Positions 4,865-15,672 of a stretch of DNA of 64,000 nucleotides are shown piece by piece; within the stretch, counting starts at the first letter, position 1; every line of letters begins with the position of its first letter. The position numbers and the translations under genes were made by a program. The stretch lies in the NCBI GenBank assembly GCA_030834695.1, contig JAUQXK010000057.1, positions 1 through 64,000 on the forward strand. The letters run 5' to 3'. Below the pieces are notes generated by a model that saw only the letters and a list, made by a program, of their open reading frames with translations, did no database searches and was not told the origin of the DNA. The DNA comes from Desulfobacterales bacterium (GTDB lineage Bacteria > Desulfobacterota > Desulfobacteria > Desulfobacterales > SpSt-501).

Positions 4865-4892
4865 AAGCAGATCGATCGCTGCAATTCAACAT

Positions 4893-5052: not shown

Positions 5053-6078
5053 TCAGGGCGAAGAAGGCTGCTCGATGCGAATGCCCTTGGAAAAATGGTC
5101 CCTGAGGCTCCCGTCCGGAAGCTCCGAAACGATCAGGCCTTCCACGTGATCGAGCCGGTTGATGAGGGCAAGCCCTTTTTCGACCCCCATTACCATGACG
5201 GCCGTTGCCAGCCCATCCGCCAGGGTGCAATTGTCCGCCAAAATGGAAACGCTCACCACCCCTTCATGCACCGGGTAGCCCGTCTGGGGGTCGATGATGT
5301 GGGAGTAGCGCACGCCGTTCTCCACAAAGAAATTGCGATAATCGCCGCTGGTGGCAAAAGCCTGGTCCTTCAAGGAAATGACTTTGTAAACCTCGTCGAA
5401 GCGCGCATCGGCCTTGGGGAGGTTGATGCCGACCCGCCACGGCCGTCCGTCCGGGCGGACGCCGGCGGCATAGACCTCTCCGCCGATTTCGACCAGGAAA
5501 TCGCTGAATCCGGCGCCGCGTACCTCGTCGGCCACTTGATCCACACCGTAGCCTTTGGCGATGGAGGAGAGATCCAGGCTCACGGCGGCATGGCGTTTGA
5601 CCAGGGCCCCTGAATGCCGGACCTCAATCTTTTGGAAGCCGATGTTCCCAAGCATGGCCGCGATTTTTTCCGGCGGCGGCCTCCGATCCACCCGGCCGGC
5701 GCGGCCGAACCCCCAAAGGTCGACCAGCGGGTTCACGGTTCCATCCCATGCCCCTTCGGAAAGTGCGTGAATATGAACAGCCTGCTGCATCACGCGCAGG
5801 AAGTCCTTTGAGATCGGAAACTCTGCGCCGGCCTCCTGAAATCGGTTGAAGCGGCTGATCTCGCTGTCCTTGAGGTAGGGAGACATGCTGTGGTTGATCT
5901 GATCGAGACGCCGGTCGATCTTTTCCTGAAGACCGGACACGGACCCGAAATAGCCGGTAACCACCTTGACGGTGTAGGTGGTGCCCATGGTCCGGCCCGT
6001 GAGCGTGTGCTCGCGCTTGGTGTCGCAGCCTGACGCCAGCAGGAATGCTGCCAGGCAAACAATCAGGCGGACGGGCAT
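5053..6078 (-). CDS. apbE: FAD:protein FMN transferase, lipoprotein
   Basis: ApbE attaches FMN covalently to threonine residues of periplasmic or membrane proteins such as Rnf/Nqr subunits. From the ATG at 6078 the 341-residue protein begins with a lipoprotein signal (lipobox LASGC near residue 15-19). It then shows family landmarks: TGRTMGTTYTVKV, SKDFLRVMQQA, DLSSIAKGYGVDQVA, EIGGEVYAAG and SHIIDPQTGYPV. The start codon lies inside an array of CCCTATGCC units, and no clear ribosome-binding site is seen; a second ATG in the same array at 6099 is possible. No Rnf genes are in the window, so the target is unknown. Confidence 0.88.
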   Translation of the reverse strand: MPVRLIVCLAAFLLASGCDTKREHTLTGRTMGTTYTVKVVTGYFGSVSGLQEKIDRRLDQINHSMSPYLKDSEISRFNRFQEAGAEFPISKDFLRVMQQAVHIHALSEGAWDGTVNPLVDLWGFGRAGRVDRRPPPEKIAAMLGNIGFQKIEVRHSGALVKRHAAVSLDLSSIAKGYGVDQVADEVRGAGFSDFLVEIGGEVYAAGVRPDGRPWRVGINLPKADARFDEVYKVISLKDQAFATSGDYRNFFVENGVRYSHIIDPQTGYPVHEGVVSVSILADNCTLADGLATAVMVMGVEKGLALINRLDHVEGLIVSELPDGSLRDHFSKGIRIEQPSSP

Positions 6079-6103
6079 AGGGCATATGGCATAGGGCATA
6101 GGG
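6073..6103. repeat. CCCTATGCC microrepeat array at the apbE start
   Basis: Three to four imperfect copies of CCCTATGCC/CCATATGCC are read on the minus strand. The array provides the candidate start codons of apbE (6078 and 6099). It begins 7 bases after the stop of the small four-helix-bundle remnant. A related array lies at 8729-8807. Confidence 0.75.
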
Positions 6104-6110
6104 TAAAAAA

Positions 6111-6284
6111 CTATTCGAGTGATTTGATAGAACTGGTGATCCGACGACAAAGCCTGTCCAAATCGGATAGGTTTTTGTCGCATTCTTCTGTCGCAATTCG
6201 GTTTCTTTTCTGAAAGATCAAAAGCCTGTCGGCAACCTCCACCGCCAACTGCCAGATTTTCAAGTCTTGGAACCTGAACTTCAT
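6111..6284 (-). pseudogene. Four-helix-bundle (S23/Avd-like) protein, internally deleted
   Basis: The minus strand encodes 57 residues from an ATG at 6284 to a TAG at 6111-6113. The first 20 residues (KFRFQDLKIWQLAVEVADR) match the start of the four-helix-bundle family related to 23S rRNA intervening-sequence proteins and to Avd. The last 20 (LSDLDRLCRRITSSIKSLE) resemble that family's C-terminal helix. Family members run to about 115-120 residues, so the middle two helices appear to be missing. A GAAGGAATG arrangement precedes the start. It lies between hypE and apbE, flanked by CCCTATGCC-type repeats. Family recognition is by pattern; the deletion is inference. Confidence 0.55.
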
Positions 6285-6323
6285 TCCTTCCCCTCTGCCC
6301 CATGCACGCTGCTCTCTGCTTTT

Positions 6324-7334
6324 TCAACAAATGCGCGGCAGCTGCTCCCCCGTCAGCATATCCACGATGCGCGTGCCGCCGATGCGGGTGTCCATGAAGA
6401 CTTTCCCGGGGTGCTCGGCGGTCACTTCGCCGATGAGCACGGCGTCGTGTCCGTACGGGTCCCGGCGCATGGCCGCCAGCACGGCATCGGTGTCTTCGGG
6501 CGCTACGAAGGCGATCAGCTTGCCCTCGTTGGCCAAATACAGGGGGTCGAGGCCCAGAAGCTCGCACAGGCCGGCCACTTCGGCCTTGACAGCAATGCGG
6601 TCTTCGCGGATGCGAATGCCGATCGCCGACTTTTCGGCGATTTCATTCAGCGCCGTCCCCAGCCCGCCCCGAGTGGGATCCCTCAGGACGTGGACGCCGG
6701 GTCCCGCGGCGAGCATGCTCCGCACCATGTGGTTGAGCGGCGCGGTATCGCTTTGAACAGATGTTTGAAACGATAGCCCCTCGCGGCTGGCCAGCACGCT
6801 CACGCCATGGTCGGCGATAGTTCCGCTCAGCAGCACCCGGTCGCCGGGCCGGGCCAGACGACTGCCGATCTGCACACCGGGCGGGATTGCACCGATCCCG
6901 GAGGTGTTGATGAAGATCTTGTCCACTGCTCCCCGGGGAACGACCTTGGTGTCGCCGGTGACCACCGTGACCCCAGCATGCGCCGCGGCCCGACTCATGG
7001 CCGACACGATCGCTTGCAGCTGGTCCAATGCAAACCCCTCTTCGATGATCAGCGCCGCACTCAGATAGGCCGGTTCCGCCCCGCACATGGCGAGATCGTT
7101 CACCGTGCCATATACGGCCAGTTCTCCGATGTTCCCGCCGGGGAAGAAGATCGGATCGACGGTGTAGGAGTCCGTCGAAAACCCCAGCCGCAGGCCTTGC
7201 AGCTCGAAAATGGCACCGTCGTTCAGTTCGGCGAGGATCGGGTTGTTGAACGCCGGCAGCAGGAGGTCTTGGGTCATGCGATGCGAAATCTTGCCCCCGC
7301 TGCCGTGATCGAGCAGTACCTTATCCGATTTCAT
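6324..7334 (-). CDS. hypE: Hydrogenase maturation protein HypE
   Basis: HypE accepts a carbamoyl group from HypF on its C-terminal cysteine and dehydrates it to a thiocyanate, the source of the cyanide ligands of the [NiFe] centre. The 336-residue protein starts LLDHGSGGK, has the ATP-binding FSTDSYTVDPIFFPGG segment and VVTGDTKVV, and ends exactly in PRIC, with the required terminal cysteine. A GGGG site lies 9 bases before the ATG. It is last of the protease-hypCFDE run, separated from hypD by about 290 bases of repeat sequence. Confidence 0.95.
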   Translation of the reverse strand: MKSDKVLLDHGSGGKISHRMTQDLLLPAFNNPILAELNDGAIFELQGLRLGFSTDSYTVDPIFFPGGNIGELAVYGTVNDLAMCGAEPAYLSAALIIEEGFALDQLQAIVSAMSRAAAHAGVTVVTGDTKVVPRGAVDKIFINTSGIGAIPPGVQIGSRLARPGDRVLLSGTIADHGVSVLASREGLSFQTSVQSDTAPLNHMVRSMLAAGPGVHVLRDPTRGGLGTALNEIAEKSAIGIRIREDRIAVKAEVAGLCELLGLDPLYLANEGKLIAFVAPEDTDAVLAAMRRDPYGHDAVLIGEVTAEHPGKVFMDTRIGGTRIVDMLTGEQLPRIC

Positions 7335-7382: not shown

Positions 7383-7624
7383 GATGACTTCGTAAAGAGG
7401 CCAAGATCCAGGCGCGCGAATCTCGTGCCGCGAGGCGTACAGGTCGTACGCCGCAGCGGCAACGAGATGAAGCGCAACGCAGGGATTGGGCTTCCAAGGA
7501 AGTCGATCTTAGAATCCCCCCACCCCCTTTGCCAAAGGGGGCGGCCGAGGGAAGAAAGCTTTTCGATTTCGTTGTCGAGCAGGGTGGTGCTGCGCGCCAT
7601 AACCCGCTATTTACGAAGTCATCA
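7383..7624. repeat. Composite copy of the GATGACTTCGTAAA palindromic element
   Basis: A copy starts with GATGACTTCGTAAA at 7383 and runs with an inner palindrome (GCGTAC...GTACGCC near 7435-7452) to a degenerate end near 7507. After about 100 further bases, which include a CCCCCTTT/AAAGGGGG hairpin near 7523-7541, another terminus TTTACGAAGTCATC occurs at 7610-7623, adjoining the hypD stop codon. Related copies are at 55446-55574 and 61031-61155. The element fills the hypE-hypD gap. Confidence 0.75.
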
Positions 7625-8710
7625 ATAGTGGTACCGGTAATACGCCGCGCACGTCCCTTCGCTTGACACCATGCACGGGCCCACCGGGTCCATGGGCGTG
7701 CAAACCTTCTTATAAAGTGCGCATTCCGGCGGCGTTTTTTTGCCGGTGAGGATCTCCCCGCAGGCGCAGCCCTTGGGCGGCCCGGCCTCCACCGCATTGA
7801 GGTGGAAGCGCCGCCCGGCGTCATGCGCCGCGTAAGCAGCGCGAATGCGCAGCCCGCTTGAGGGGATCAGCCCGATACCCCGCCAGCAGGCGTCGGCCGG
7901 TTCAAACACCCGGGCCAGTATTTCCTGGGCCTTACGGTTGCCCGCTTCGGTGACCGCCCGCGGGTAACCATTCACGAGCCGTGCCTTTCCGGACTCGATC
8001 TGCTCGATGAGGCTGACGATCGCCTGCAGGATATCGGCGGGTTCGAAACCGGCAACCACACAGGGAATCCGGTGCCGGTCGAAAAATGGCCGATAGGCGT
8101 TGAGCCCGATGATGACGGAGACATGGCCCGGCAGGATGAACCCGTCGATGCGGACGTCCTCCACGGACATGAGCGCGTCAAGGGCTTGCGGCACCGTCTT
8201 GTGGGCCGCCAGCACTGAGAAATTATCAAGCCGGGCTGCCGCCGCCGACAGAATGGCGGCAGCGATGGTGGGCGCCGTCGTTTCAAAGCCTACTCCAAGG
8301 AAGACCACCTGTTTCTCCGGGTGGTTTCGGGCGATGGCGAGTGCATCCATCGTTGAATAAACCACCCGGATGTCACGCCCTTCCGCCCGCTCGGCCTGCA
8401 GGGAGGAGGTGCTGCCGGGAACCCGCATAAGGTCGCCGAAGGTGGCCACGATCACCTCCGGTTGTTTTGAAACCTCGATGAAGGCGTCAATCTCGGCCTG
8501 GTCCGTCACGCACACCGGGCAGCCGGGGCCCGACAAAAGCGAGACGGTCTCGGGAAGCAGGCTGCGGATTCCGCTGCGAAAAATGGAAACGGTGTGCGTG
8601 CCGCAGACTTCCATGAGGCGGACCGGACGTCGGCTGGTGCGTTTGATCTGCTCCGCCAGCTGGCGGGCCAATTCGGCATCCCGGTATTCCTCGATATGTT
8701 TGATGGTCAT
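7622..8710 (-). CDS. hypD: Hydrogenase maturation protein HypD
   Basis: HypD is the [4Fe-4S] scaffold on which, with HypC, the Fe(CN)2CO unit is assembled. The 362-residue product has MEVCGTHT near residue 33, GPGCPVCVT near 62, and a cysteine-rich C-terminus (GCACGEILTG, PPECALYKKVC, GPCMVSSEGTC) that binds the cluster. The ATG at 8710 follows an AGGA site by nine bases; a longer frame upstream runs into repeat sequence and lacks support. The last codons abut a palindromic repeat that follows the TGA. Confidence 0.95.
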   Translation of the reverse strand: MTIKHIEEYRDAELARQLAEQIKRTSRRPVRLMEVCGTHTVSIFRSGIRSLLPETVSLLSGPGCPVCVTDQAEIDAFIEVSKQPEVIVATFGDLMRVPGSTSSLQAERAEGRDIRVVYSTMDALAIARNHPEKQVVFLGVGFETTAPTIAAAILSAAAARLDNFSVLAAHKTVPQALDALMSVEDVRIDGFILPGHVSVIIGLNAYRPFFDRHRIPCVVAGFEPADILQAIVSLIEQIESGKARLVNGYPRAVTEAGNRKAQEILARVFEPADACWRGIGLIPSSGLRIRAAYAAHDAGRRFHLNAVEAGPPKGCACGEILTGKKTPPECALYKKVCTPMDPVGPCMVSSEGTCAAYYRYHY

Positions 8711-8728
8711 ATAAGTTGATCCTTTGAT

Positions 8729-8807
8729 GGCATAGCGCAGAGGGCAAGAGCATAGGGTCCAAAAGGGAAACAACCGGATGTGGCTCTATGTCCCATGCTC
8801 TATGCTC
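8729..8807. repeat. Inverted arrays of CTATGC-type microrepeats between hypD and hypF
   Basis: The left arm at 8729-8757 (GGCATAGCGCAGAGGGC..., reading GCATAG units) and the right arm at 8783-8807 (CTCTATG...CTCTATGCTC) are imperfect inverted copies of the same microrepeat seen at 6073-6103. They enclose about 25 bases. The right arm encodes the last residues and the TAG stop of hypF (8786-8788). Confidence 0.65.
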
Positions 8808-11071
8808 TTAGCCGCAATCACCGCCTGACCGAGTGCGATCCCGCCGTCGTTGGTCGGCACCAGCCGATGGCTGAACACTTCGAAACCCCGGCCTTCCAAT
8901 GCGCGAGCCAAGCCGGTCAACAGGCGCGAATTCTGGAAAACCCCGCCGCTCAGCACGACTTGCTTCAAACCGTGCGCTGCACGGATTCGATCGCACAGGT
9001 CGCTGAACAACCGGATCAAGGTGTTGTGGAACCTGGCGCTGATCAAGGATATCTGGCACCCTTTCCCGACGTCCGTCGCTACGGCGCGGACGATCGGCGC
9101 CGGCGGCATTCGCCAGGGGCCGTCTCCCTCCAAAAAATAATCGTAGAAGGACTCGGTTTCGTTCCGTGCCGCCATCTCGAGCTCCATGGCGGCCTGGCCT
9201 TCAAAGCTGACCCGCGACCGCAGGCCAGCGATGGCGGCCACCCCGTCGAACAGGCGTCCCAGACTGGAGGTGAGCGGCGAGTTGATGCGTTTGACGATCA
9301 TCTCCTGAATCAACCGGACCTTGTCAGGGCCGGTCTCCCGCATGAACGGCAGGTCCAGGCCGCCGAGATTCCCGCCCAAGGCGTCATGCAGATAACTGAC
9401 GGCCATGCGCCAGGGTTCGCGAATGGCGGCCGCGCTGCCCGGCATGGGCACTCCGGACAGGTGGGCGGCGCGTTCAAACCCGCTTGCGGACGCGATCAAG
9501 GCCTCCCCGCCCCACACCGTGCCGTCGGGGCCATAACCGGTGCCGTCGCAGGACAACCCGATCACGCTTCCCTCCAGCCGGTGTTCGGCCATACAGCTCA
9601 CGATATGGGCGTGGTGGTGCTGGACCCGCACCTTGGGGATATCCCTCTGTTCATCGGCCCAACGCGTGCTGAGGTAATCCGGGTGCAGATCGCAGGCGAT
9701 GATTTCCGGCCGCACCGCGAGGATGTTGCGCATGTGGTCGATCGTTTTCTGAAAGAACTCATAAGTGGCCAGATTTTCCAGGTCGCCGATGTGCTGGCTG
9801 ATGAAGGCCTGGCTCCCCTTGGTGAGGCAGACCGTGTTCTTGAGCTCGGCTCCGCAGGCCAGAATCGGCGGCAGCGCCTGCCTCAGGAATACCGGCACGG
9901 GAACGTATCCGCGCGAACGCCGCAGGAAGCGCGTAGCGCCCGCGGCATGCCGCACCACGGAATCGTCGCTGCGCAGGTAGATGTCGCGGTCGTGGATGAG
10001 GAAGGCATCGGCGATGTCGGCCAGGCGTTCGAATGCATCATCGTTGGCGATGGCGATCGGCTCCTCGCTCCGGTTGCCGCTGGTCATTACCAGCGCGGTG
10101 AAGCCAGCTCGCAGCAGAAGATGATGCAGCGGCGTGTAGGGCAGCATGGCGCCGACATACCGGTTGCGGGGTGCCACCTCTTCGGCCAAGTGGTAGGAGG
10201 ACGCTTTTTCCAGAAGCACGATCGGCCGTTGGATCGAGCGGAGCAGGCTCCCCTCCGCCGCCTCTACAATGGCATAGCGCTGGATCGCCGCCAGATCGGG
10301 CGACATGACCGCAAAGGGCTTTTCCTCCCGCAGCTTGCGTTGCCGCAGGCGGGCTACGGCCTTAACGTTCAGCGCATCCACGGCGAGATGATAGCCTCCC
10401 AGGCCCTTCACGGCCAGTATTTTCCCCTGCCGGATCAGGTCTGCGGCGGCGGGGATGGCATCCGCCGTGCGGGTCGGCTGCCGGTGGCTGCCCCACAGAC
10501 TGACTTGCGGGCCGCAGGCCGGGCAGGCGTTGGGCTGGGCGTGAAAGCGGCGGTTCAGGGGGTCGTCGTACTCGGCCTGGCAGAGCGGGCACATGGTGAA
10601 GTGCCGCATGGACGTCTTGGGCCGGTCGTAGGGGATGTCGTCGATAATGGTGTACCGCGGACCGCAGTTGGTGCAGTTGATGAAGGGGTAGCGATAACGC
10701 CGGTCGGCAGGGTCGAACATCTCCTTCAGGCAATCGTCGCAAACGGCGACGTCCGGAGAGATGAGCGTGGCCATGGCCGCCTGCCCGCGGCTGGAGGTGA
10801 TGCGGAAGTCCGCATAGTTCTGAAGCGGATGCGGATGGCTTTGGATCTCGACGATGTGCGCCAGCGGGGGGCTTTTTGCAGCGAGGTCTTTTTCGAATGC
10901 GATGAGGTTTTCGGCCGGTCCCTCGATTTGGATGGAAACGCCGGCGGAGGTGTTGGCCACCTCGCCCTTCAGGCCGTATCGAGCGGCCAATTGATAAACG
11001 AACGGCCGGAAGCCGACTCCCTGAACGATTCCGTTGACCTGCAGCCGTCTGGCTTCCAAACCCTGCGCCAT
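8786..11071 (-). CDS. hypF: Carbamoyltransferase HypF
   Basis: HypF converts carbamoyl phosphate to a carbamoyl adenylate and loads it on HypE. The 761-residue protein shows the full domain order. First comes an acylphosphatase domain (VQGVGFRPFVYQLAARY, residues 15-31), then paired zinc-finger motifs (CDDCLKEM, CTNCGPRYT, CPLCQAEY, CPACGPQ, residues 107-190), a YrdC-like domain, and a Kae1-like C-terminal domain with HHHAHIVSCMAEH. It starts three bases after the hypC stop. The final residues and stop lie inside a dispersed microrepeat, so the natural C-terminus may have been altered slightly. Confidence 0.95.
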   Translation of the reverse strand: MAQGLEARRLQVNGIVQGVGFRPFVYQLAARYGLKGEVANTSAGVSIQIEGPAENLIAFEKDLAAKSPPLAHIVEIQSHPHPLQNYADFRITSSRGQAAMATLISPDVAVCDDCLKEMFDPADRRYRYPFINCTNCGPRYTIIDDIPYDRPKTSMRHFTMCPLCQAEYDDPLNRRFHAQPNACPACGPQVSLWGSHRQPTRTADAIPAAADLIRQGKILAVKGLGGYHLAVDALNVKAVARLRQRKLREEKPFAVMSPDLAAIQRYAIVEAAEGSLLRSIQRPIVLLEKASSYHLAEEVAPRNRYVGAMLPYTPLHHLLLRAGFTALVMTSGNRSEEPIAIANDDAFERLADIADAFLIHDRDIYLRSDDSVVRHAAGATRFLRRSRGYVPVPVFLRQALPPILACGAELKNTVCLTKGSQAFISQHIGDLENLATYEFFQKTIDHMRNILAVRPEIIACDLHPDYLSTRWADEQRDIPKVRVQHHHAHIVSCMAEHRLEGSVIGLSCDGTGYGPDGTVWGGEALIASASGFERAAHLSGVPMPGSAAAIREPWRMAVSYLHDALGGNLGGLDLPFMRETGPDKVRLIQEMIVKRINSPLTSSLGRLFDGVAAIAGLRSRVSFEGQAAMELEMAARNETESFYDYFLEGDGPWRMPPAPIVRAVATDVGKGCQISLISARFHNTLIRLFSDLCDRIRAAHGLKQVVLSGGVFQNSRLLTGLARALEGRGFEVFSHRLVPTNDGGIALGQAVIAAKSIEHGT

Positions 11072-11074
11072 GGT

Positions 11075-11329
11075 TTATTCACCCGGTTCCTCCCGCTGAC
11101 CCCCCTTGGCCTCCACCAGAGCGGCGGCCTCCCTCAGCAGCGCCAGGGTCTCGAGGGCCGCAGTTTCGTCAAGCTTCGATATCGCAAAACCGGCGTGAAC
11201 GATGACGTACTCGCCGACCTGGGCGTCTTCCACCAGCAGCAGGCTGCACTCCCGCCGGACGCCGTCCACATCGATGACGGCCATGTTGTTTTCAATCTGG
11301 GTTATTTTCGATGGAATCGCGAGACACAT
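11075..11329 (-). CDS. hypC: Hydrogenase assembly chaperone HypC
   Basis: HypC is the small chaperone that binds HypD and delivers the iron-ligand unit to the hydrogenase large-subunit precursor. The 84-residue protein begins MCLAIPSKI; the cysteine at position 2 is the essential metal-binding residue once the initiator is removed. It has the OB-like core (VDGVRRECSLLLVEDAQVGEYVIVHAGFA). Its start overlaps the end of the upstream protease gene and hypF follows within a few bases, so the three are coupled. Confidence 0.95.
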   Translation of the reverse strand: MCLAIPSKITQIENNMAVIDVDGVRRECSLLLVEDAQVGEYVIVHAGFAISKLDETAALETLALLREAAALVEAKGGQREEPGE

Positions 11330-11873
11330 GATTCGTGGAATCCTTCCTGCGGTAGGATACGCCCAGGCGCTCCAGTTCTTTCAGAACCATTCCGGCCACG
11401 GGCTCCACCTGGGCCTGGACCGTCGGCGTCAATACCAGGCTGAGGGTCTGGATATCTTCGGGCTCGACTCCAATGATAACGGTTTTCGGCACGTTGTCGA
11501 GAGCCTGGCAAAGGGTCAACGCCTCCAGAAAATCGACCTGGTGCAGAGAATTCTTGGCGCGGATGCGCTCCGGGATGGCCTCCCCCTCAATGCGGTAGAG
11601 GTCGCCGGGCTTCCCGTGGTTGCGCATGGTATCGACGACGATGAGGTGCCGGGGCTTTGAGATCACGCCCAGCAGATTGATGCCCAGGACGCCGCCGTCC
11701 ACTACGAGAACGTTGTCCGGGAATTCATATTCTTTTTCGATCTTCTGAATGACCTGGATGCCGAACCCGTCGTCGGAAAAAAGGATCGACCCGATCCCCA
11801 GAATCATGATGTCCGGGGAGTAGATGTCATCGAACGGGCTGGCCCCATTGGTCGTCAACGGTATATCCTCCAT
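11292..11873 (-). CDS. [NiFe] hydrogenase maturation endopeptidase (HyaD/HynC family)
   Basis: This protease removes the C-terminal peptide of the hydrogenase large subunit after nickel insertion. The 193-residue protein contains the family opening ILGIGSILFSDDGFG (about residues 24-38), with the nickel-sensing acidic residue in SDDGFG, and VVDGGVLGINLL. A later His (NSLHQVDFL) is also typical. It has about 20 extra N-terminal residues, so an internal start is possible. The substrate should be the large subunit encoded just upstream, whose DPCxxCxxH tail has the usual cleavage point. A terminator separates it from the structural genes. Confidence 0.85.
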   Translation of the reverse strand: MEDIPLTTNGASPFDDIYSPDIMILGIGSILFSDDGFGIQVIQKIEKEYEFPDNVLVVDGGVLGINLLGVISKPRHLIVVDTMRNHGKPGDLYRIEGEAIPERIRAKNSLHQVDFLEALTLCQALDNVPKTVIIGVEPEDIQTLSLVLTPTVQAQVEPVAGMVLKELERLGVSYRRKDSTNHVSRDSIENNPD

Positions 11874-11955: not shown

Positions 11956-13611
11956 TTAAAGCGCCTTAATCTTATAGACTTGGTTGGAGTCCGGGTCGAT
12001 CACATGTACCGCACAGGCAATACAGGGATCAAAGGAGTGCACGGTGCGCAAGATCTCGAGTGGTTTTTTGGGATCGGCGATCGGCGTCCCAATGAGAGAC
12101 TCTTCGACCGGTCCCAGCTTGCCCTTGGCGCAACGCGGCCCAAGGTTCCACGTGGAGGGCACCACGTACTGGTAATTCTTGATCTTCTTGCCATCGATCA
12201 CGACCCAATGCCCGAGGGCGCCGCGTGGCACGTCGTTAAGGCCCACGCCTTGTCCCTTGTCCGGCATTTCGTAGGCCGCACAGGTCTTGGAGTCCCCACT
12301 CTTGAGGTTCTCCACCAGTTCCATGACCCAGCCCTGCATGGCTTCGCCGACAACCAGGGTTTCGATACCGCGCGCGGCGGTCCGGCCCAGGGTCGAGAAC
12401 AACGCATCGGCATTGACGCCCAAGGTGTTGATGACTTTGTCCACCACAGGGGCGATCTGCTTGTGGCCGTAACCATAGGCCACCAGGACGCGGGCGAGCG
12501 GGCCGACCTCGCACGCATTGCCGTCGTACCGTGGAGCTTTCAACCACGTATAGCGTCCGTTGTCGCTCTTGGTGTCGTATTGGGGATCAGCCTGGATAGG
12601 CTTGGTCTCTCCCTGGTACGGATGCTTGTCGGCACTGCCTTCATACCAGGAACGCGCCACATGCTCGGTGATCTTTTGCGGATCGACCGGCTTTACGCCG
12701 GACATGCTGCGGTTGGTAATAATCCCGCGCGGCAGGAAAAGGCTTTCGGGTTCCTTCTCGCTCTGCGGAAAGTCGCCGTAGGCCAGGAAATTGCTCGTGC
12801 CGCCGATGGCGCCCCAGTCCTTGTAGAAGGAGGCTACCGCCAGCAGGTCAGGAATGTACACGTTTTTAATGAAGTCCTGGGTTTCCTTGGTGATATACAG
12901 GAACTCGGCGATCCGTCCCGGGGTCAGGTCGCCCACGCAGCTGACACCGCCGGTGACTAGAAACTGCGGATGCGGGTTCTTGCCGCCGAAGATGGCGTGC
13001 ATGCGGGCGGCCTTGGCTTGCAGCCGCAGAGCTTCAATGTAATGGGCCGTTGCCATGAGATTGGCTTCCGGCGGCAGCTTGTAGGCCGGATGGCCCCAGT
13101 AGGCATTTGCGAATGGCCCCAGTTGACCGCTGTCAACGAACGTCTTAAGCCGTTGCTGCACGTTTTTGAAATATGCGCTGCCACCCCACGGAGCATTGGA
13201 AACATTGTCGGACAGGGCCGCCGTCTTGGCCGGATCGGCCTTCAGCGCACTGACCACGTCCACCCAGTCCAGGGCGTGGAGGTGATAGAAATGGACAATA
13301 TGATCGTGCTGGTACTGCGCACCATGCATCAAGTTGCGGACCAAGCGTGCATTCTTCGGGATCTTCACACCGACAGCGTTGTCGACTGCCCTCACCGAGG
13401 ACAGAGCATGGATGTACGTTCAGACCCCGCAGGAGCGCTGCACGAAATGCTGGGCATCCCTCGGATCGCGCCCCTGCAGAATGATTTCAATACCGCGGAA
13501 CATCTGCCCGGAGCTCCAGGCGTTAACAACTTTGCCTCCGGCCACCTCGACCTCGATCCGGAGGTGCCCCTCAATTCGGGTTATGGGATCAACCGTGATT
13601 CTCTCAGCCAT
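11956..13611 (-). CDS. hynA: [NiFe] hydrogenase large subunit with in-frame TGA (putative selenocysteine)
   Basis: This is the catalytic subunit of a periplasmic uptake hydrogenase. Read through one TGA at 13420-13422 it gives 551 residues, the usual length. The start at 13611 follows GGAGG by five bases; the frame opens with [19 protein letters not shown]. The N-terminal nickel-site motif should read RSCGVCTYIH, but the second cysteine codon is TGA, so it reads RSCGV(TGA)TYIH. The frame continues without change ([15 protein letters not shown]). The C-terminal motif is intact with cysteines, DPCIACAVH, followed by a cleavable tail. A hairpin fitting a bacterial SECIS follows the TGA. A nonsense mutation or base error (TGC to TGA) is the alternative. 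The symbol follows sulfate-reducer usage, which varies. Confidence 0.85.
13386..13404 (-). promoter_or_regulatory. Candidate bacterial SECIS hairpin in the hydrogenase large-subunit gene
   Basis: On the coding strand CTGTCCTC pairs with GAGGGCAG (8 bp including one U-G) around the loop GGU. The loop begins 23 bases after the in-frame TGA, and its first base is G. Known bacterial SECIS elements have a short apical loop with a G among its first two bases, roughly 16-37 bases after the UGA, so this one fits. The hairpin is coding (LSSVRA), so conservation in cysteine-containing homologues must be checked. Confidence 0.6.
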
Positions 13612-13669: not shown

Positions 13670-14614
13670 TTATAGCTCCTGGTAGAACGGAGTAAACTTG
13701 TCCCAGAAATCAGGCTGGCTGCAGCCGATGCAGGGATGCCCCGCCTGAACCGGCCAGCTGGCACCGTCGTTGAACTTGGCGATGGGGCAGTTGTTGTATG
13801 TCTCAGGGCCGCGGCAACCGACTTTGTACAGGCAATAGCCGAGCGCAGCCTCTTCGGATCCGAATTCAGTGACGAATTCTTGATTTTCAAAGTGGCCTCG
13901 TCGCGGGCAGTTGTCGTGGATAGTCTGACCGTAGGCGAACAAAGGCCGCCCGAGATCATCCAGCGCGGGCAATTTGCCCATCAGAAGATAGTTAACCACA
14001 GTGCCCACGAAGTTGATGGGATTCGGAGGACAGCCGGCGATGTTGACGGTTTTGATTCCAAGCGCTTCGCCCACACCTTTATAACCGCCCGGATTGGGTT
14101 TGGCTGCCTGGATGTTGCCGTAGGATGAGCACTGGCCGATGCAGATGACACCGGCTGCCTTTGGGCAGATATCCTTGGCGATTTGCAGAAAGCTTTTGCC
14201 GCCCACTTTGCCGTATCCGCCGTTGAACTTGGTAGCGATGGCGCCTTCCACCACGCAAATGAATTTGCCTTTGTATTTCTCTACCGCGTTGTGCAAAGCT
14301 TCTTCGGCCTGGTGGCCAGCCGCCGCCATGATGGTTTCATGGTAGGCTACGTCGAGCACGTCCAGCACCAACTGGTCGATCCACGGATACATGGACCGGA
14401 TCAACGCCTCTGAGCAACCTGTGCATTCTCCGAGATGCAGCCAGATCACCGGTGGCCGTTGGGCGGGCTGAGCAAAAACCTCGGCCACCTTCGGAACGAA
14501 CGAGGAGGACAGGCCCATCGTTGCCGTAAGGAACGTGCAGAACTTCATGAAATCCCGCCTGGAGACGCCCTTGCCCTCCAGTCTTTCATAAAAAGCTCTT
14601 TCTTCTTTGTCCAT
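13670..14614 (-). CDS. hynB: [NiFe] hydrogenase small subunit, Tat-exported
   Basis: This electron-transfer subunit carries three iron-sulfur clusters and is exported with the large subunit through the Tat pathway. The N-terminus has the twin-arginine motif SRRDFMKF at about residues 18-25, then a hydrophobic stretch ending near VFAQPAQ. Proximal-cluster cysteines are in LGECTGCSE and in IGQCSSYGN/NIAGCPPNP. Medial and distal ligands follow in HDNCPRRGHF, GCRGPETYNNCPIAKFN and HPCIGCSQPDFWD. I use the ATG at 14614, five bases after AGGAGG. The protein (314 residues) lies 58 bases upstream of the large subunit. No membrane-anchor or cytochrome subunit is adjacent, so a soluble enzyme working with cytochrome c3 is likely. 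Confidence 0.95.
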   Translation of the reverse strand: MDKEERAFYERLEGKGVSRRDFMKFCTFLTATMGLSSSFVPKVAEVFAQPAQRPPVIWLHLGECTGCSEALIRSMYPWIDQLVLDVLDVAYHETIMAAAGHQAEEALHNAVEKYKGKFICVVEGAIATKFNGGYGKVGGKSFLQIAKDICPKAAGVICIGQCSSYGNIQAAKPNPGGYKGVGEALGIKTVNIAGCPPNPINFVGTVVNYLLMGKLPALDDLGRPLFAYGQTIHDNCPRRGHFENQEFVTEFGSEEAALGYCLYKVGCRGPETYNNCPIAKFNDGASWPVQAGHPCIGCSQPDFWDKFTPFYQEL

Positions 14615-14863
14615 TTGCACCTCCTTGATGCGATTGTTGATTTAACTCACACCGCTTCCGCTATTATGGCAACACTACAAGTTACCCTTGCAGCAAGGTC
14701 TCGGAATAAGAGTGGTGCAGCAAAAAAAAAGTGCAGGAAAAAAACATCAGGCGAGGTTAGATGCGCCTGCCTAAAAGATTAAGGCTCCCCGTTCGCATGC
14801 CTAATTATTTCAGTATTGCTCGCAAGTCAATCGAAAACTATGGCAAGTAAGTGACAATCGCTG

Positions 14864-15584: not shown

Positions 15585-15672
15585 GGAGGGATGGCTGAGT
15601 GGTCGAAAGCGGCGGTCTTGAAAACCGTTTCCCGGCAACGGGACGTGGGTTCGAATCCTACTCCCTCCGCCA
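15585..15672 (+). tRNA. tRNA-Ser (TGA anticodon)
   Basis: The acceptor stem GGAGGGA pairs with TCCCTCC, followed by discriminator G and an encoded CCA. The anticodon loop CTTGAAA gives anticodon TGA (serine). The long variable arm (CCCGGCAACGGG) is typical of class II tRNAs. The T-arm carries GGTTCGAATCC. Confidence 0.96.

Follow-up and report, generated by a model that had tools for sequence, protein, structure and literature searches.

Classical [NiFeSe] hydrogenases, such as HysA of Desulfovibrio and Desulfomicrobium and VhuU and FruA of methanogens, combine the [NiFe] fold with an encoded selenocysteine (Sec) as a nickel ligand that is inserted by UGA recoding. In these enzymes, Sec is the first residue of the C-terminal L2 motif (UxxC), a terminal Ni ligand beside the proton-gate glutamate. 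In the sources searched, selenium in natural [NiFe] large subunits has so far been described at this L2 terminal ligand only, and its role there has long been debated; other positions have been reached by engineering in E. coli, reportedly including Cys-to-Sec variants of Hyd-1 made by Evans, Krahn, Armstrong, Soll and co-workers in 2021. In 2024 work on E. coli Hyd-2, amber-codon engineering introduced Sec singly at each of codons 61, 64, 546 and 549, and according to the available parts of that report all four variants oxidise H2 with lowered activity (PMC11212049).

The available part of a 2026 inventory of 119 prokaryotic selenoprotein families contains hydrogenase large subunits with UxxC only, and a [NiFe] hydrogenase with CxxU in the N-terminal L1 motif is absent from it (PMC13188914). 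The same part describes UxxU selenoproteins (a Prx-like thiol:disulfide oxidoreductase, NF041115 and an FmdB-type protein) in which two UGAs lie three codons apart, like the double-Sec L1 reported below, but it does not describe these residues as Ni-Fe ligands (PMC13188914). An L1-Sec form was likewise not described in the parts available of a 2022 table (PMC9312934), a paper on marine Deltaproteobacteria that covers F420- and methyl-viologen-reducing hydrogenases (PMC8318568), a 2006 survey with FrhA and FrhD (PMC1794560), a 2007 stop-codon survey with periplasmic [NiFeSe] hydrogenase (PMC1914089) and an account of putative [NiFeSe] hydrogenases of sulfate reducers with a C-terminal Sec (PMC4730141), and the accessible main text of a 2025 predictor paper contains no word starting with "hydrogenase" (PMC12013277). 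A natural CxxU or UxxU L1 hydrogenase was not found in the literature searched; a mention in tables or supplements, in the 2007 Olavius selenoproteome or in the 2021 Hyd-1 work is possible.

We analysed a window of 64,000 nucleotides from a Desulfobacterales genome, in which a [NiFe] hydrogenase operon lies on the minus strand. The large-subunit gene (11956..13611, minus; PF00374, 747 bits) is a frame of 551 codons plus a stop, and its sole internal TGA is codon 64 (13420..13422, minus). The translation bore out the claim of the first-pass annotation that a single TGA, standing in for the second L1 cysteine, interrupts an otherwise intact frame; if this codon is decoded as Sec, the product has 551 residues and the motif RSCGVU. 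The first L1 cysteine, Cys61, is encoded at 13429..13431 (minus), and the L2 residues Cys530 and Cys533 (12013..12024, minus) are both cysteine in the motif DPCIACAVH, as had also been claimed. With the classical [NiFeSe] enzymes the predicted product shares the [NiFe] fold, an encoded Sec as nickel ligand and UGA recoding, and HysA also occurs in sulfate reducers; the difference is that L2 is CxxC here and Sec would be the second residue of L1 (CxxU). The score with the HysA model NF045518 was 421 bits against a cut-off of 780, and NF033181 (short name NiFeSe_hydrog), compared by score alone, was narrowly missed (591 against a cut-off of 600). Membership in the classical [NiFeSe] group was rejected on the basis of the two L2 cysteines and the HysA score, in keeping with the earlier remark that classical Sec sits in L2, unlike here.

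A small subunit and maturation proteins are encoded next to the large subunit. The small-subunit gene (13670..14620, minus; TIGR00391, 404 bits; PF14720, PF01058) has an intact frame and a twin-arginine signal (TIGR01409, 25 bits). A maturation protease of the HyaD/HybD type (11292..11873, minus; PF01750) scored above the cut-off of TIGR00072 and slightly below that of TIGR00140 (147.4 against 151.8 bits), and HypC (11075..11329, minus; PF01455), HypF (8786..11071, minus; five HypF domain families) and HypD (7622..8773, minus; PF01924, 512 bits) are also encoded. A further gene of the AIRS family (6324..7334, minus; PF00586, PF02769), whose C-terminus was read and ends in PRIC, is presumably HypE, a name given from its domains and position. 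The standard group-1 relatives presumably have a small subunit and maturation genes of these kinds as well. The PF00374 match, the L2 motif DPCxxCxxH, the partner small subunit and the maturation protease all place the enzyme in group 1, while in place of the four cysteine Ni ligands of that group we found only three, the second one of L1 being replaced by a TGA codon. An ApbE-family gene (5053-6567; residues from 5053-6000 scanned) adjoins the hyp genes, and its overlong ORF start is probably wrong. By eye, sat- and qmo-like genes are also found near the operon. A read-through candidate at 4888 (minus) was rejected as merely the lead-in of another ORF.

For its proximal cluster the small subunit has the usual motif, CTGC, and it is without the extra cysteines that mark O2-tolerant enzymes. 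No C-terminal anchor was evident in the small-subunit sequence and, since the protein carries a Tat signal, a soluble periplasmic location is likely; these features suggest an uptake enzyme that would pass electrons to cytochromes for sulfate reduction.

In the comparison with solved structures, the best-scoring entries were periplasmic [NiFe] hydrogenases of the D. vulgaris Miyazaki F type (1h2a, 4u9h and others). Residues 61 and 64 align with residues 81 and 84 of 1h2a, and residues 530 and 533 with 546 and 549. The group-1 periplasmic enzymes (D. vulgaris Miyazaki F, D. gigas, D. fructosovorans) have the same L2; in the alignment with the Miyazaki F enzyme the second L1 ligand of the standard form is Cys, whereas the gene studied here has TGA. 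According to the available part of a 2025 paper, Cys84 and Cys549 are the Ni-Fe bridges of the D. vulgaris Miyazaki F enzyme (PMC12117559). Since residue 64 aligns with Cys84, we predict that it, too, bridges the two metals, which supports, still as a prediction, the earlier assignment of the second L1 cysteine as a bridge by homology. Because the available parts of the Hyd-2 report show H2 oxidation with Sec at each of the four ligands (PMC11212049), Sec at ligand 64 appears to be chemically viable, and the C64U variant of Hyd-2 is the laboratory counterpart of the predicted natural enzyme.

We then compared the locus with its relatives. Among 96 genomes (the source genome and relatives), 74 had some match and 23 had a close homologue (74-100% identical) holding one TGA. 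When 30 loci from relatives were read, 18 had the TGA, always at the position of codon 64, and 12 had Cys. Named loci were ranked by similarity to a TGA gene; among the best 80 of 107, 41 had this TGA, 2 had TGA at both L1 cysteines, 35 were Cys-Cys and 2 did not cover L1, so that 78 cover it. The titles of these best 80 of 107 were mostly Desulfobacterales, Desulfobacteraceae or "Deltaproteobacteria" metagenome assemblies; none of them placed a TGA copy under a named pure-culture species, and the Desulfosarcina cetonica copy has Cys. A DNA pattern for CGxU-T at L1 matched in 58 of 389 genomes sampled from the larger group of the window's order, while its reversed control matched none; one of these matches (L060 in G065) lacks a hydrogenase L1 and is probably due to chance, so that 57 are likely real. 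With a slightly looser pattern applied across the phylum, 8 of 395 genomes matched (6 of the 17 that belong to the window's order and 2 of the 378 others; reversed control 0). As judged from these sequences, the TGA-bearing hydrogenase is a widespread family trait.

In total, 165 loci gave 155 extracted sequences and, after merging duplicates, 114 distinct genes, namely 58 C-U, 8 U-U, 48 C-C and no U-C at the two L1 positions. These counts are not frequencies because 43 of the 165 loci were fetched for matching a TGA pattern (of the matches in the 389-genome search, 30 were read as loci) and 80 were chosen by similarity to a TGA gene, which makes the sample of 114 non-random. The ten loci left out are L046 (single TGA, truncated by its contig), L092, L119, L121, L136, L140 and L176 (all Cys-Cys, with a deviating or truncated N-terminal motif), L144 and L148 (L1 not visible) and L060. 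Of the 66 distinct TGA genes, 63 are open to L2 with no further stop and the other 3 are truncated at a contig end; wherever L2 is visible (63 genes), it has Cys at both positions. An in-frame TGA at a redox or metal-ligand cysteine with Cys homologues is a mark of bacterial selenoprotein genes, and it is found here. Since 7 of the 66 TGA genes (L023, L047, L048, L052, L096, L131, L145) also use TGA as their own terminal stop, a genome-wide reassignment of UGA was rejected.

A sequencing error, an assembly error or a pseudogene could also produce an in-frame TGA, and the source genome is a draft of 149 contigs with an estimated contamination of 4.96%. However, the same TGA occurs in open frames in dozens of separate assemblies, and the reversed-pattern controls found nothing in 389 + 395 genomes. 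For the family this explanation is refuted, and we give it a negligible probability. The TGA shared by many assemblies, the intact small-subunit frame and the presence of the maturation genes also agree with the earlier view that this is not a decaying locus.

Bacterial SECIS elements are hairpins shortly 3′ of the UGA with a G in the apical loop. Downstream of the TGA of codon 64 we found such a SECIS-like hairpin, CUGUCCUC-GGU-GAGGGCAG (13386..13404, minus), with a stem of 8 bp. The first-pass annotation had described 8 bp and a GGU loop, which we also see, and had set the start of the hairpin 23 bases behind the TGA, which does not hold: the stem begins at 15 nt and it is the loop that begins at 23 nt. 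With a spacing of 15 nt, 8 bp and a G in the apical loop, the claimed fit to the bacterial rules stands. The bare 19-mer folds with -10.6 kcal/mol (z -3.68), but the z-score weakens to -1.79 in a 29-nt stretch with flanks and to -0.10 in a 47-nt stretch from the UGA, and for this reason folding energy alone is unconvincing.

Conservation gives a much clearer signal. All 8 pairs are formed in 63 of 66 TGA genes versus 1 of 48 Cys genes, and among random synonymous versions of the peptide 577 of 200,000 give all 8 pairs. In the remaining 3 TGA genes one pair is broken, and in L032 both sides of one pair are changed (T-G to G-T). The loop is GGU in 62 of 66 TGA genes and GGC in 4. Across the 58 C-U and 8 U-U genes, none of the six hairpin codons varies in its third base. 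Third-base pair identity in these codons was 1.0 in 65 of the 66 TGA genes versus 0.463 over 392 other codons, the top of 344 windows; as a comparison, it was 0.345 in the same region (5 usable codons) versus 0.467 elsewhere in 34 of the 48 Cys genes, from which 14 deep or outgroup rows had been removed by hand. L094 (TGC), the one Cys gene that retains the complete hairpin, looks like the relic of a Sec-to-Cys reversion that happened recently. Taken together, these results show that TGA and hairpin are kept and lost jointly across relatives, and the opposite outcome that had been considered beforehand, close relatives that all have cysteine with the same hairpin, was not seen: the full hairpin is absent in 47 of 48 extracted Cys genes.

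The hairpin region also bears on whether the UGA is a true stop and two polypeptides are made, an N-terminal fragment and a product of downstream restart, in the manner of VhuA/VhuU, which are split hydrogenases. The 3′ arm of the hairpin contains GGUGAGG, which resembles a Shine-Dalgarno sequence, and a formal ORF begins at a GTG within the hairpin. In 4 of 66 TGA genes, however, GCG stands in place of this GTG (loop GGC), and the next in-frame candidate codon past the hairpin varies in relatives (e.g., GTG, GTC, ATC), so that a split gene with restart was rejected for want of a constant start codon. In addition, the break would sit within the metal-binding loop, conservation extends beyond the purine run to the exact 8-bp stem, and eight genes have two TGAs in one loop. 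We regard the split gene as extremely improbable.

A different possibility is that the UGA is read through but mostly cysteine is placed there, by mis-charged tRNA-Sec or by sulfur in place of selenium, which would make an ordinary [NiFe] enzyme. Cysteine is workable at codon 64, being the residue in 35 of the 78 L1-covering loci among the best 80 of 107 named loci. Yet UGA is kept in 43 of the same 78, with TGC and TGT one base away and about 20 U-C interchanges on the tree, and the recoding signal is retained with invariant third bases. Bacterial SelA/SelD chemistry is also selective for selenium, which we count against this reading, and we consider it very unlikely.

Some relatives appear to carry selenium at both L1 positions. 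L111 reads RVUGVU and L135 reads RTUGVU, with TGA at both L1 cysteines, and in the order of the genome of L111 this double TGA (RxUGVU) was found in 8 of 85 genomes, with both codons TGA in 8 of 8 matches. As a negative result, TGA at the first L1 codon was found in 0 of 389 genomes of the window's own order; from this, and from the 85-genome group, which holds no members of the window-order sample, the order of L111 appears to differ from that of the window. The frames of the eight double-TGA genes are open across both TGAs, and L2 is intact in the 7 in which it is visible. The downstream stem is kept in 8 of 8, with one G-G mismatch in L111 and L158. When 60 nt from the first UGA were folded, an additional small hairpin at the second UGA was predicted in 8 of 8; the pairing is GCGTC/GACGC in 4 of them and a different one in the other 4, and because the pairing differs between the two sub-groups we mark this hairpin as unproven. 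The predicted hairpin may assist the decoding of the first UGA. As a side observation, residue 66 is Met in all eight double-TGA genes (L157-L164) but Tyr or Leu in the single-TGA sequences inspected.

The first-pass annotation had proposed a search for selA, selB, selC and selD, and all four were found above cut-off in the source genome. There is one selA match (615 bits), two selB matches (375 bits and 281 bits, the latter partial, on a 6.3-kb contig), two tRNA-Sec genes (75 and 58 bits, both with the anticodon TCA) and two selD genes (379 and 363 bits), each with one in-frame TGA. The tRNA-Sec genes are on contigs C140 and C11, selB on C54 and C11, and selD on C65 and C5; the doubling reflects either a duplicated Sec system or co-assembly, the contamination estimate being the 4.96% given above. 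Because selB is near-universal, above cut-off in 84 of the 96 genomes (the source genome included), its presence does not discriminate, and co-occurrence with the Sec machinery was dropped as a discriminating test. Of the 23 TGA genomes, 4 lack selB above cut-off (G013, G042, G080 and G084, assemblies of 520 to 740 contigs), and G013 has a partial selB match of 219.9 bits; in the named genomes tried, selB was above cut-off in 8 of 8, both double-TGA ones among them. A second hydrogenase of the source genome (L185/L188, C87:75776-77026) has RICGIC in L1 and the classical L2 Sec motif DPUISC, so that, judging from the two motifs, a single genome appears to encode two Sec-containing hydrogenases, one with Sec at L1 and the other with Sec at L2. 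In the window itself, 15585-15668 is a weak match to the tRNA-Sec family (43.9 bits, below the cut-off of 47) and probably represents an ordinary tRNA whose variable arm is long.

We next mapped the L1 residues on a tree built by a quick method. About 20 U-C changes were needed, 11 of them forced by the starred branches alone, and the deep outgroup rows are all Cys. The tree itself is blind to gain versus loss; because the hairpin sequence is so nearly identical across the clade, we read this as one Sec gain followed by many losses. At residue 67, three positions past the second L1 ligand, all 65 Sec genes have Thr or Ile, whereas 24 of 43 Cys genes have Val (5 outgroup rows removed). In independent pairs over starred branches, the residue differed in this direction in 4.4 of 10 on average and in the opposite direction in 0.0 (median p 0.125), which hints, without significance, at a second-shell adjustment around the ligand.

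That U and C have replaced each other many times in sequences that are otherwise alike would also fit a reading in which Sec is inserted without special catalysis and serves as a selenium-dependent switch on hydrogenase synthesis. The absence of Val at residue 67 in all 65 Sec genes versus 24 of 43 Cys genes speaks against such a switch, though the independent pairs are not significant, and we consider the switch unlikely.

We are highly confident in the preferred reading, that a natural Sec stands at codon 64 of a soluble periplasmic group-1 [NiFe] hydrogenase, put there via SelB, tRNA-Sec and the hairpin, with Se64 predicted by homology to bridge Ni and Fe. The UGA of codon 64 would be decoded as Sec by the ordinary bacterial route, with SelB and tRNA-Sec acting on the hairpin 15 nt downstream. 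The protein would then fold, and the Ni-Fe(CN)2CO site would be installed by the Hyp proteins and the operon's own protease, with the metals held by three cysteines and one selenocysteine. In the oxidised inactive forms of standard enzymes, S-oxygenation occurs at the L1 bridging cysteine, so that selenium at this bridge could make such damage reversible; as a guess, reversible ligand oxidation may allow quick recovery after O2 in sediments, and the repeated reversion to Cys may have occurred where the O2 advantage or selenium was missing. We infer Sec in the protein, selenium as the bridge and an effect on catalysis from gene sequences.

With somewhat less confidence, we think it probable that the L1 pair as a whole is a natural selenium site. 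This would comprise the bridging-selenolate family (CxxU) and, in an apparently different order, a UxxU lineage with two selenium atoms on Ni, one terminal and one bridging, in which one downstream hairpin would serve two UGAs nine bases apart, the second small hairpin perhaps helping. What appears new against the literature searched, and is supported by the sequences compared here, is a putative selenoprotein [NiFe] hydrogenase with Sec at another ligand, predicted to bridge, together with a double-Sec lineage. The Se-bridge family, the double-Se site and the natural Cys versions offer a ready comparison of selenium at each ligand with regard to oxygen recovery, proton transfer and catalytic bias.

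Ordinary gene calling splits the large-subunit gene of the window at the TGA. This suggests that a periplasmic hydrogenase common in Desulfobacterales and gutless-worm symbionts is fragmented in annotations, and surveys of such communities may therefore miss part of their H2 uptake. In the plasmid collection, 139 records held homologues, all below 60% identity, and 4 records of the phage collection held distant homologues, one of them at 60-80%. Five further hydrogenases with an internal TGA (G083:C200, G028:C97, G077:C103, G089:C137 and G040:C19) are 35-47% identical and may be classical L2-Sec enzymes. The Olavius-associated group carries the gene (L089, L105 and L123); L089, from Olavius Delta1, has the L1 peptide SCGVUTYTHALSSVR, and L123 and the window have the same L1 tryptic peptide of 15 letters.
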